Positions 3,831 through 7,000 of a stretch of 64,000 nucleotides of DNA are shown piece by piece. This DNA comes from Streptomyces sp. CB02261. GTDB lineage: Bacteria > Actinomycetota > Actinomycetes > Streptomycetales > Streptomycetaceae. Numbering within the stretch: position 1 is the first letter of the stretch; every line of letters begins with the position of its first letter. Location: positions 771,019 to 835,018 of the forward strand of contig NZ_LIVX01000004.1 of assembly GCF_001905665.1 (NCBI RefSeq). Direction: 5' to 3'. A program made the translations under genes and the position numbers. Below the pieces are notes generated by a model. The model was not told the DNA's origin and did not search any database. It saw only the letters and a list, made by a program, of their open reading frames with translations.

Positions 3831-5294
3831 TCAGCGGGGCGTGCCCAGCACCTGGGCCCAGTAGGGCCCGGACGGCGAGTCGACGACACCGACGCCCACG
3901 TGCCGGTAGGCGCAGTTGAGGAAGCCGGAGTCCCTTCCCGTCTCCCGCATCCACTGCTCCACGGCGGCCTGCGGGTCACGCGGCCCGTGCGCCAGGGTCT
4001 CGCCCACCGCCGACCACGCGTACCCGGCCGCGAGGACGCGATCGCCCGTCCCGCGTCCCGAGGAGTCCGTGTGTCCCACGTATCCCCGGGTCCGCATGTC
4101 CTCGACGTGACGCCGGGCGACCCCGGCGAGCCGCGCGTCCGGCAGCAGGTCCGTGCAGCCGTGCTGCGCCCGCAGCGCGTTCACCCGGTCGAGCACACGG
4201 TCCTGCGGCGGGGCGGGCGCCGGCGACGTGCGGCTGGGGCGCGGTGACGGAGCGGGCGAGCGGGTGGGAGGGGCCGAGGTCGTGGTGGGAGGAGCGGTGG
4301 TGGGGGCCGTGTCGTGGGCGGTGGAACGCAGCGGTGCGGGACGTCCGGCGTGGGGTGTCCCGGTCGACGAGGGGGCCGCGCCGCCCCGATCGTCCGGCGG
4401 CGCGGACGGCGGCCACACGAGGACCAGCGTCGCCACCGCGGCGACCGCGACCGCCGCTCCGGAGTACGCCAGCACCGACGCGGCGTTCGACGCCGGGACC
4501 TGGACCGCCGCCTCCCTGATGGTGTGCCACAGCGCGGTGCCGGCGTACAGCGGTACGACCAGCCCGATCCCGGCCAGCAGGCCTTCGACGGGCACCAGGG
4601 TCCGTGTCCCGCCGTGACAGACGGGGCAGTCGCGTACGTGCCGGCTCACGCGTTTGCGCCACAGCGGGGTCGCCGAGCCGTCCCAGGCGGCGGTGACGGA
4701 GGCCAGTTCCGCGCACGGGGGGTCGGCCGACAGGGCGCGTACGACGGTCCGCGCCGTTTCGAGCTGGTTCTTCACCCGCTGTACGCGGACCGCCGCGTGC
4801 TGGGGCGACATCCCCAGGCTGTCGGCCAGTTCGGCGCGTGAGAGCGTCCCCGCCGCCTCCAGCCACCACAGCGACAGCACGTCCCGCTCGGAGTCGTCGA
4901 GCCAGCGGCTCGCCTCGACCACCTCGCGCCGCTCACCCGAGAGCTGGAGCCGCAGGATGGTGAGGTCGGCGAAGTCCACGGGGTCGGCCGGTTCGGTGGC
5001 GTGGGCCAGAGGTGTGGACTTCGTGTCACGGGCCGCGTAGTGGGTGCGGAGCTGGTTCATGGCGATGGCGATCAGCCAGGACCGGAAGCTCGAGACGTCC
5101 CGCAGGCCGGCGAGCTTGCCCAGCGCCCGCACCATGGTCTCCTGCACCACGTCGTCCACATCGGCATGCCCCCGCATGGCCCGGCCCACCACGCTGTACA
5201 CGAGCGGGAGGCAGTCGGCGGCGAGACGGGCCCGCGCGTCCGGGTCGCCGTCCCGGGCGGCCGCGACCACCGCGTCGTCGAACGTGCTCTCCAC
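3831..5294 (-). CDS. ECF sigma factor fused to zinc finger, membrane segment and CAP (SCP/PR1) domain
   Basis: This is a 487-residue fusion. Sigma region 2 is about residues 20-90 (VVQETMVRALGKL, SFRSWLIAIAMNQ) and region 4 about 130-185 (LSRAELADSLGMSPQHAAVR). A zf-HC2-like anti-sigma zinc motif follows with H219, C223 and C226. Hydrophobic segments lie near 240-255 and 272-295. A Pro/Thr/Ser-rich linker then leads to a C-terminal CAP domain (about 370-487; VLDRVNALRAQHGC, WMRETGRDSGFLNCAYRHVG). The layout implies a membrane-tethered sigma factor with a sensor outside the membrane. The start is GTG 5294, chosen because GGAGGGGGAG precedes it by a few bases; longer in-frame starts lack a ribosome site. 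The gene stands alone. Confidence 0.85.
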   Translation of the reverse strand: MESTFDDAVVAAARDGDPDARARLAADCLPLVYSVVGRAMRGHADVDDVVQETMVRALGKLAGLRDVSSFRSWLIAIAMNQLRTHYAARDTKSTPLAHATEPADPVDFADLTILRLQLSGERREVVEASRWLDDSERDVLSLWWLEAAGTLSRAELADSLGMSPQHAAVRVQRVKNQLETARTVVRALSADPPCAELASVTAAWDGSATPLWRKRVSRHVRDCPVCHGGTRTLVPVEGLLAGIGLVVPLYAGTALWHTIREAAVQVPASNAASVLAYSGAAVAVAAVATLVLVWPPSAPPDDRGGAAPSSTGTPHAGRPAPLRSTAHDTAPTTAPPTTTSAPPTRSPAPSPRPSRTSPAPAPPQDRVLDRVNALRAQHGCTDLLPDARLAGVARRHVEDMRTRGYVGHTDSSGRGTGDRVLAAGYAWSAVGETLAHGPRDPQAAVEQWMRETGRDSGFLNCAYRHVGVGVVDSPSGPYWAQVLGTPR

Positions 5295-5562
5295 CGCTCT
5301 CCCCCTCCGAACGCGCTGATCTTCCGGTCGCCCGGGAAGGTGGCTCCTCTCCCCGGCGGATCGGGCAATGCGGGAATTCCGACTCCCTCCGCGGCGCCTG
5401 GCGTTTTCACCGCCCAGCCGCCGCCGGGTAACGCCCGGATTTCCTGTGCACCGAATGCCGGACGCAAGGGAGTGCACCGGCACAGCGGATCTCGGACGAC
5501 CACCGGAGGAACCGGCTCCGTCCGGTCGCCGAAGAATACGGGGAAAGATGGTCGGATGAAAA
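5295..5562. other. intergenic stretch upstream of the sigma-factor fusion
   Basis: About 270 bases. It should hold the promoter of the minus-strand sigma-factor gene, but no convincing -35/-10 pair was recognised and there is no coding sequence. Confidence 0.4.
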
Positions 5563-5826
5563 TCAGTCGGGCCACTTCCATCCGATGCCGTGAACGCCGC
5601 CGCGGTGCCGGGTGGTCAGCAGGTGGACGGAATGCGAGGCGTCGAGCAGAATCCGGCGCGAGCGGTACGCGTCCTCGGGATGCGGGACGCCCCGGTAGGC
5701 GTGGCAGGCGGCGGGCAGAGCCGCCGGATGGAACACGGCAGGGCCCGGTGTTCCGTCCGTGCGCAGGCGCCAGGCGGGACGGTGCGGGGGTGGCTGAGGT
5801 GTCTCGCGGAGGGGGACATGTCTCAC
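5563..5826 (-). CDS. small protein of unknown function ending GWKWPD
   Basis: An 87-residue reading frame starting GTG 5826 directly behind the strong site CAGGAGG. The N-terminal half is proline-rich. The C-terminal part, from DAYRSRRILLDASHSVHLL to GIGWKWPD, looks like ordinary coding sequence. The last 20 residues match the pattern L-x-T-R-x(3,4)-V-x-G-x-x-W-x-W-P-D shared with the small gene at 6167-6388, so the two are probably paralogues. I do not recognise the family. There is no signal peptide or membrane segment. It is the last of three tiny minus-strand genes. Confidence 0.5.
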   Translation of the reverse strand: MRHVPLRETPQPPPHRPAWRLRTDGTPGPAVFHPAALPAACHAYRGVPHPEDAYRSRRILLDASHSVHLLTTRHRGGVHGIGWKWPD

Positions 5827-5907: not shown

Positions 5908-6021
5908 TCATGGGAGCTGCACCTCGGTGACGTCCCCGCCGAAGGGACCCCGCCGGCAGGGGGTGGCCCCTGGTGACGGCGGGCGACACGGCGCACCGGG
6001 TGCACTCGGCGCTGACGGCAT
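5908..6021 (-). CDS. possible 37-residue peptide gene
   Basis: The frame runs ATG 6021 to TGA 5908 and is preceded by AAGGGAGACCAG, a good ribosome site. The peptide has two cysteines, many Pro/Ala/Gly and the C-terminus GGDVTEVQLP. It lies between the two WxWPD small genes on the same strand. Codon composition cannot decide reality at this length. The ribosome site and position are the only support. No function can be given. Confidence 0.35.
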   Translation of the reverse strand: MPSAPSAPGAPCRPPSPGATPCRRGPFGGDVTEVQLP

Positions 6022-6166
6022 CTGGTCTCCCTTCGTGGTGTCTCGGCGAGCGGTGCGGCTGCGGATACAGGGGGAGACCGCCCCCGACCGGCCGGATAAC
6101 AGAAATTCGGAGAACTCGTGGATGCAGGTTTCGCGAGGCACGCGACAGTGCCGCTCGGGCGCCGGT

Positions 6167-6388
6167 TCAGTCGGGCCACTCCCAGCAGAGCCCCTGGTAA
6201 ACCGAGGGCATACGGGTTTTCAGCCGGCCACAGGTGACGGTGATGTCCGGCAGAGCGGCCACGGACTCCTCGTACACCTGGACCACGGTCATCGCGCTGA
6301 CGCCGTCACGCACCGCGCGCACGACATGGCGTCGGGACAGCACCGCCGTGCCACGCCTCTCGTTCAGGCGCAGCGTGGGCTGTGACAC
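6167..6388 (-). CDS. small protein of unknown function ending CWEWPD
   Basis: A 73-residue frame from GTG 6388 (weak site CAAGG). An internal ATG at MTVVQVYEESVAAL would give a shorter 41-residue product. The C-terminus, LKTRMPSVYQGLCWEWPD, parallels that of the gene at 5563-5826, including W-x-W-P-D as the final residues. It has two cysteines and no signal peptide or membrane helix. Function and family are not recognised. The duplication of the C-terminal motif is the main reason to believe it is real. Confidence 0.45.
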   Translation of the reverse strand: MSQPTLRLNERRGTAVLSRRHVVRAVRDGVSAMTVVQVYEESVAALPDITVTCGRLKTRMPSVYQGLCWEWPD

Positions 6389-6538: not shown

Positions 6539-7000
6539 CTATGGATACGTCCGCACGTCGTCCGTGTAGTCGCGGGCCCGTTCCCGTACGAGCTCCGGCA
6601 GGGTGCCGGTCGCCAGGTCCGCCAGGGTCGTGCGCTCCAGGACCTGGCGCAGACTCGTCCGCACGGCACGCCACACATCCGGCAGGGGAGCCGCCGCCCC
6701 CTGGTACTCCAGGCCCGTCAGCTTCAGGTCCCGCACGCTGACGAGCGGTCCGTCCATCGCGCGGATGACGTCGGCGAGGCTGATCTCCGCGGGTGGCCGG
6801 GTGAGGACGTACCCACCGTCGGGGCCGCGCACGCTGCGCACCAGACGGGCCTGGCGCAGGTCACCGAGCACGACGAAGAGGAAGCGGACCGGGATGTCCT
6901 GGCGTCCGGCGACGTCCTCGGCCTTCAGGGGCCGGTCCGGGGAACAGGCCAACTCGGCCATGGCCCGGATGGCGTAGTCCGTTCGCGCTGAGATCCTCAC
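6539..7000 (-). CDS. Rrf2-family transcriptional regulator without the iron-sulphur cysteines
   Basis: This is a 153-residue winged-helix regulator of the Rrf2 family: RISARTDYAIRAMAELA at the N-terminus, then the recognition region (IPVRFLFVVLGDLRQARLV) and the wing RGPDGGYVLTRPP. IscR/NsrR/RsrR-type members carry three cysteines after the wing to hold an Fe-S cluster. Here only one cysteine is present (ELACSPD), so cluster-based sensing is unlikely. It is divergently transcribed from the FAD-binding/TPR gene, with a 21-base palindrome in the shared gap, so it probably controls that gene. The start GTG 7000 has no strong ribosome site. Confidence 0.85.
   Translation of the reverse strand: MRISARTDYAIRAMAELACSPDRPLKAEDVAGRQDIPVRFLFVVLGDLRQARLVRSVRGPDGGYVLTRPPAEISLADVIRAMDGPLVSVRDLKLTGLEYQGAAAPLPDVWRAVRTSLRQVLERTTLADLATGTLPELVRERARDYTDDVRTYP

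Follow-up and report, generated by a model that had tools for sequence, protein, structure and literature searches.

A single gene in the window, the whole 64,000-nucleotide stretch of Streptomyces sp. CB02261 DNA that was analyzed, probably encodes a transmembrane sigma factor of the ECF52/ECF53 kind that works as a one-component system and regulates its own gene, with predicted promoter use, release and ligand. This reading is built on computed results: the domain architecture, the conservation of its motifs, the charge bias that sets the topology, the placement of a promoter-like motif and the match between the outside module of the sigma factor and the modules of neighboring proteins. For a broader reading the chances are about even: the protein would belong to a family of one-chain receptors with a private promoter that has almost no further sites in the genome. 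The sensor, open to exchange, would copy the module found in the target genes, and the CAP domain would recognize a ligand in the envelope or outside the cell. To our knowledge, the CAP domain has no settled function in bacteria, and fused sigma/anti-sigma receptors are known to us mainly from domain listings. The family provides a testable promoter and a very small predicted regulon, and one may guess that the signal is the ligand or substrate of the partner CAP or GH43/AbfB proteins. Direct tests thereby become possible, in Streptomyces, of what CAP domains do in bacteria and how fused ECF sigma factors are released; the family also offers a sigma switch that is compact, self-contained and possibly orthogonal.

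Architecture of the fused sigma factor

The gene lies on the minus strand, which the first-pass annotation left unstated; it starts with GTG at 5294, its stop codon ends at 3831, and it encodes 487 amino acids (table 1). An alternative in-frame GTG at 5483 would give 550 amino acids; the alignment of relatives starts only at about residue 8. The first-pass annotation had described an ECF sigma factor, a zinc finger, a membrane segment and a CAP domain in one protein, and this description was borne out by Pfam, TIGR02937, the structural model and the family. Sigma regions 2 and 4 are both present as proposed: PF04542 (Sigma70_r2) recognizes region 2 (E = 1.8e-12) and TIGR02937 (sigma70-ECF) spans residues 19-180 including region 4 (E = 1.8e-20), Pfam's own region 4 model giving no match in the window protein. 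With regions 2 and 4 only, recognized by ECF models, the protein classifies as an ECF sigma factor. In the AlphaFold model pLDDT is mostly over 90 across the sigma regions, the finger and the CAP domain, and in a fold comparison the sigma part matched sigma-E (1or7) and SigW, the structures of which were solved together with their anti-sigma factors. A frameshift artifact, named at the outset as a finding that would undo the fusion, was ruled out by the recurrence of the identical architecture across dozens of genomes. The fusion of a sigma factor to a ZAS-type (zinc anti-sigma) finger and an extracytoplasmic domain agrees with the published groups ECF48, ECF52 and ECF53 (PMC8999054). The first-pass interpretation was of the right type, though it did not go far enough.

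Table 1. Features of the sigma-CAP gene and its upstream region, in window positions
Feature	Position	Strand	Basis
Fused ECF sigma, CHCC ZAS motif, one membrane helix, Pro/Thr linker and CAP	3831..5294	-	487 aa, stop included
CAP/SCP domain, residues 361-487	3834..4214	-	PF00188; fold match to 4ifa; pocket census
Disordered Pro/Thr/Ser-rich linker, predicted extracytoplasmic, residues 294-360	4215..4415	-	Sequence; pLDDT mostly under 55
One predicted membrane helix, residues about 272-293	4416..4481	-	Hydropathy; family positive-inside bias; model helix at 271-293
CHCC ZAS motif C194-x24-H219-x3-C223-x2-C226	4617..4715	-	Invariant in 68 members; hhalign to host ZAS domains
Sigma region 4, residues about 121-189, helix-turn-helix	4728..4934	-	TIGR02937 to residue 180; confident model helices
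Sigma-70 region 2, residues 26-89	5028..5219	-	PF04542 E 1.8e-12; invariant DxDDVVQET
Ribosome-binding site GGAGGGGG, about 6 nt before GTG 5294	5301..5308	-	Sequence
87-aa ORF, RBS GCAGGAGG	5563..5826	-	Like C-terminal end of XRE regulator adjoining sigma-CAP in related species
37-aa ORF, RBS GAAGGGAG, ATG 80 nt from motif start	5908..6021	-	Sequence
Family promoter-like motif TGTTATCCGGCCGGTCGGGGGCGGTCTC, towards sigma-CAP gene	6074..6101	-	Only strict copy in genome

The finger residues H219-x3-C223-x2-C226 had been read correctly, and with C194 they make up a zinc motif of the CHCC type. None of the four residues varies in the alignment of 68 members, and HxxxCxxC is kept in 83 out of 83 sequences. 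In ZAS domains a Cys or His lies 23-26 residues before HxxxCxxC (PMC4960319), a spacing that the window protein shares (C194-x24-H219). A profile of the finger region aligned with the known ZAS domains of the host genome, the RsrA orthologue included (hhalign E = 4.7e-5, probability 68). The ZAS helices are confident in the full-length model; the ZAS part modeled alone was poor (pLDDT 63) and gave no usable structural match in a fold search, a profile search of the PDB with the region gave no match, and the zf-HC2 model scored below threshold on it. Because the isolated region was modeled poorly and matched no structure, the ZAS fold is putative.

Of the hydrophobic helices annotated behind the finger, one membrane helix stood, and the earlier segment (residues 232-250) turned out to be a conserved LVPAEGLLxGL motif. 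Across the family the mean net charge is +5.0 in the 25 residues before the helix and -1.1 in the 25 residues after it, and the variable stretch between the LVPAEGLLxGL segment and the helix is strongly positive in most members. An arrangement of two membrane helices with a cytoplasmic CAP domain was rejected on the grounds that positive charge precedes the second hydrophobic segment across the family. From the family charge bias and a conserved, disulfide-suited cysteine pair (C380/C461, kept in nearly all CAP members) the protein is predicted to pass the membrane once with the CAP domain outside; the topology is taken from the family since the helix flanks of the window protein itself are neutral in charge.

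A full CAP domain, as first annotated, was confirmed by a domain search (PF00188 at residues 368-481, E = 2.6e-17, 64.2 bits, cut-off 21.1), and its model superimposes on 4ifa (Z 19.8, 122 residues, 1.8 A), so that sequence profile and fold both assign it to the CAP/SCP superfamily. The pocket is altered (H408, E432, R454 and H465): relative to the His/Glu/His/Glu type, the third His and the fourth acidic residue are lost. Pocket residues are not required for the CAP fold, and the membership stands. In the window-type group (14 sequences) the third pocket His is replaced by Arg and the fourth position is His in 14 out of 14; this position is acidic in about two thirds of the CAP domains outside the group, and free CAP proteins encoded by these genomes have an intact His-Glu-His trio (13 out of 13). 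The residue pattern makes it more likely that the fused CAP domain has a binding or scaffolding function than that it keeps a conserved catalytic role. Two further variants of the fused domain were observed. In L019, L024, L047, L057 and L074 it (C-terminal 120 aa) lacks several pocket residues and stretches of the fold and keeps the Cys pair, and in L050, L066 and L072 it is of an unusual subtype (LSHQCPGE) in which the first Cys of the usual pair is missing.

The family was defined by a scan of species genomes and comprises 80 loci, the best 80 matches of one query; the query carried a CAP domain, so family frequencies are biased towards Streptomyces and CAP. Nearly all loci are from Streptomyces and Kitasatospora, the others including Nonomuraea, Asanoa, Streptantibioticus and a record named Streptosporangium. 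A sigma-finger-helix core is common to 68 aligned relatives, with sigma region 2 in 68 out of 68 and DxDDVVQET and WRKR..RH.R invariant. The outside module is CAP in 60, AbfB in seven and a glycosyl-hydrolase core (Glyco_hydro_cc) in one, and the module labels follow the tree of the sigma core. The earlier remark that a CAP sensor is less usual was not upheld: in this CAP-biased sample it is the commonest module (60/68). The conserved neighborhood was rejected as a functional clue, amounting to clade-level synteny apart from the CAP and GH43 neighbors.

The host carries paralogues of the window gene. One (L003, G000:C13:554219-555340) is 50% identical over the sigma-finger core, carries an AbfB arabinose-binding module at its end in place of CAP and has no promoter motif. 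The third CAP-bearing gene of the host (L004/L006/L134, G000:C17:273060-274771) has an eroded sigma region 2 and keeps the ZAS motif, the membrane helix, an intact CAP pocket and the promoter motif; it might regulate that promoter negatively or act as a decoy for it.

A promoter-like motif and the genes it precedes

A comparison of upstream regions, made without prior assumption, identified a bipartite promoter-like motif (TTTcTGTTATCC-N16-GTCTCC) about 60-90 nt ahead of most family genes. Word pairs of the 5+4 form were present in 31 out of 51 upstream regions and in at most seven in shuffles. The motif occurs within 150 nt upstream in 40 of the 80 loci (0.06 expected), with a spacer of exactly 16 in 36 of these 40, and a looser form is found in 50 out of 55 members outside the S. 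griseus-type and AbfB groups. The 7.7-Mb host genome contains a single strict copy, at 6074-6101 of the window and oriented towards the sigma-CAP gene. The relaxed motif and its bare core (GTTATN{18,19}TCTCC) each occur three times, at the window gene and the CAP-bearing paralogues on contigs C16 and C17, and a reversed control motif does not occur in the host genome. About 2.4 core sites are expected there by composition, so it is the placement of the three sites that is telling and not their number.

Two groups depart from this pattern. One is the S. griseus-type group, to which the window is closest. Its motif lies on the opposite strand and reads into the gene of an XRE regulator, and this regulator may for this reason be controlled by the sigma factor or act together with it; in these species (L040:4736-5839, minus strand, and equivalents) it overlaps a TTGACC/TAACAA-like pair on the other strand, before the XRE gene. 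The motif is absent in front of the AbfB-type sigma genes and host L003; the copy present in the AbfB group points into a divergent gene.

Overall, 62 bare core sites were found on both strands of the 80 related loci (1.9 Mb), and each of them is followed by one of three kinds of gene: fused sigma in 49 cases, separate CAP in 9 and GH43-like/AbfB in 4. The gene behind each of the 13 non-sigma sites encodes a separate protein that has its module in common with the sigma factor of its locus, and no module-matching rule entered into the search. The motif-bearing separate CAP proteins belong to L010, L011, L018, L021, L022, L036, L039, L072 and L087, and secreted GH43-like proteins with an AbfB domain (AbfB E = 3e-48, the GH43 match being below its cut-off) carry the motif beside AbfB-type sigma factors in L061, L062, L076 and L084, the target gene of L061 lying about 4 kb from the sigma gene on the same contig. 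Sensor and neighboring free CAP are both of the unusual subtype and 70% identical in L072; except in L018 and L072, sensor CAP domains were no closer to their own neighbor than to other CAP proteins. Within the host, the three sigma-CAP genes are the only ones with the motif, the module-matched targets being seen in relatives. As far as sequence goes, the matching suggests that the switch senses what its targets act on. A free membrane-anchored CAP gene (G000:C16:563458-564096, minus strand) is convergent with the second sigma-CAP gene of the host and lacks the motif.

The window motif lies 780 nt upstream of the sigma-CAP gene with two small ORFs between, for which Pfam and NCBIfam gave no significant match. 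The 37-aa ORF, for which no homologue was found, is a possible leader gene. The ORFs at 5563-5826 and 6167-6388 (minus strand) both end in W[EK]WPD and are similar to parts of the XRE-type regulator whose gene diverges from sigma-CAP in S. griseus-type species; they have the look of leftovers of this partner, or of derivatives of it about one domain in size. Upstream of the small ORFs, a gene for an Rrf2-family regulator (6539-7000, minus strand; PF02082 E = 4e-34), a possible redox or iron-sulfur regulator, was identified. A scan of the region for sigma-70 promoters and terminators gave nothing useful on the strand of the gene.

Proposed mechanism and alternative explanations

Use of the motif by the sigma factor, ZAS inhibition, proteolysis and the ligand are the deduced parts of the following scheme. 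At rest, the covalently attached CHCC-type ZAS region would hold sigma regions 2 and 4 in cis, while the membrane helix and the disordered Pro/Thr linker would display the CAP domain outside. A signal sensed by this domain would lead to cleavage near or in the membrane helix, degradation of the ZAS region and liberation of the sigma factor, a release step modeled on ECF52 SCO4117, P. putida IutY and SigI/RsgI. The free sigma factor would bind TTTcTGTTATCC-N16-GTCTCC and activate its own gene and, in many relatives, that of a neighboring secreted or membrane-anchored protein with the module of the sensor. By pairing CAP with sigma-CAP and GH43-like/AbfB with sigma-AbfB, the receptor would report on the substrate material of its targets.

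Several observations count against this scheme: the 780 nt and two small ORFs between motif and gene in the window, the reading of the motif into the XRE gene in the nearest relatives (S. griseus type), its absence in front of the AbfB-type sigma genes and host L003 and at the CAP neighbor of the C16 paralogue, the poor model of the isolated ZAS region with no structural match and a zf-HC2 score below threshold, the neutral helix flanks of the window protein, and sensor CAP domains that are not closer to their own neighbors (except L018 and L072).

Two other explanations are each unlikely. The first makes the CHCC finger the main sensor, as in RsrA, with oxidation of C194, C223 and C226 causing zinc loss and freeing the sigma factor and with the membrane and CAP part serving location only. 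It draws on the invariant C194, which marks the CHCC type tied to disulfide sensing in RsrA (PMC4960319), and on five members that keep a degenerate CAP domain minus several pocket residues. A purely cytoplasmic redox input would not, however, predict modules that differ cleanly by clade and match the predicted targets, and RsiW is a membrane ZAS protein with a static zinc site (PMC7406223). The second is a conformational switch without proteolysis, in which a CAP ligand would move the helix and loosen the ZAS-sigma contact in a protein that stays whole at the membrane. The high local concentration within a single chain would suit such a switch, and ECF41 extensions act by conformational change (PMC8999054), but the long disordered linker between CAP and helix would be a poor transmitter of conformation, RNA polymerase would have to be reached by a membrane-tethered sigma factor, and IutY, the one characterized fused case, is proteolysed (PMC8999054).

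There is only a slim chance that the motif belongs to another regulator, for example an unrelated sigma factor controlling a CAP/AbfB regulon that includes these sigma genes. The link between motif and sigma factor is positional only and non-sigma genes are also preceded by the motif; against this, the host core sites are confined to three family genes, every site in the loci adjoins or shares a contig with a family member, and autoregulation is usual among ECF sigma factors. It is very improbable that the CAP domain, as an enzyme or a structural protein of the wall, became attached to the sigma factor by chance and that the fusion does no signaling: CAP proteins are varied in role and free ones adjoin, but the sigma and ZAS residues are invariant in all members, the own promoter motif is conserved, and the loss of the third pocket His with a His at the fourth position in 14/14 window-type CAP domains speaks against a conserved catalytic function.

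Comparison with known systems

The proposed receptor resembles SigI/RsgI of Clostridium thermocellum (PMC4711584, PMC12203970), in which the sigma factor autoregulates, the outside binding modules of the membrane anti-sigma factor are related to the substrates of the target enzymes, and proteolysis proceeds by RseP and then ClpXP. RsgI5 has a CBM42, and GH43-CBM42 genes have predicted SigI promoters (PMC4711584, PMC12203970). Comparable sharing of modules between sensor and target is found in relatives of the window protein (nine CAP and four GH43-like/AbfB neighbors) as an analogy of working only. In SigI/RsgI, which belongs to the Firmicutes, sigma and anti-sigma factor are separate, SigI is not an ECF sigma factor and the RsgI modules bind polysaccharides, whereas the window protein is a single-chain ECF sigma factor with a CAP sensor.

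IutY of Pseudomonas putida (ECF243; PMC8999054) likewise fuses a sigma factor to a membrane anti-sigma factor and is freed by regulated proteolysis; it differs in belonging to an iron-siderophore system with an outer-membrane receptor and in having no ZAS-CAP arrangement. RsrA (PMC4960319) shares the CHCC zinc anti-sigma motif with the Cys 23-26 residues before HxxxCxxC but is soluble, separate and redox-sensing, whereas the window ZAS motif is fused and membrane-tethered.

Among actinobacterial proteins, ECF52 SCO4117 of S. coelicolor (PMC5826349) is likewise a single polypeptide with sigma factor, zinc finger, membrane helix, proline-rich region and extracellular module, has a proposed proteolytic release and has a motif in one of its own promoters. 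Its outside module is NPCBM and not CAP, and its reported motif is CSGYN-17-SRHA as opposed to TTTcTGTTATCC-N16-GTCTCC. An ECF52 identity was rejected, as the NPCBM-type module is replaced by CAP and the host ECF52 is a separate gene (L090), which has no BLASTP similarity to the window protein and a weak family-profile match (E = 3.8e-8).

No ECF-CAP fusion or GTTAT motif was found in the literature searched, which covered reviews of the ECF groups; the group-defining classification of ECF53 may already list CAP modules or the motif. New here are the promoter motif and the match between sensor and target modules, both computed. ECF53 comprises actinobacterial C-terminal ZAS fusions with one or two membrane helices, some members having glycosyl hydrolase and carbohydrate-binding domains (PMC8999054, PMC10766802). 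Its descriptions make no mention of CAP modules, a promoter motif or module-matched neighbors (PMC8999054, PMC10766802). The AbfB and Glyco_hydro_cc members of the present family fit them well, and the window protein, with one helix, agrees with the outline of the group as a C-terminal fusion of zinc finger, one or two membrane helices and an extension of up to about 400 residues (PMC8999054). Placed by these review descriptions, ECF53 is the likely home of the window protein.
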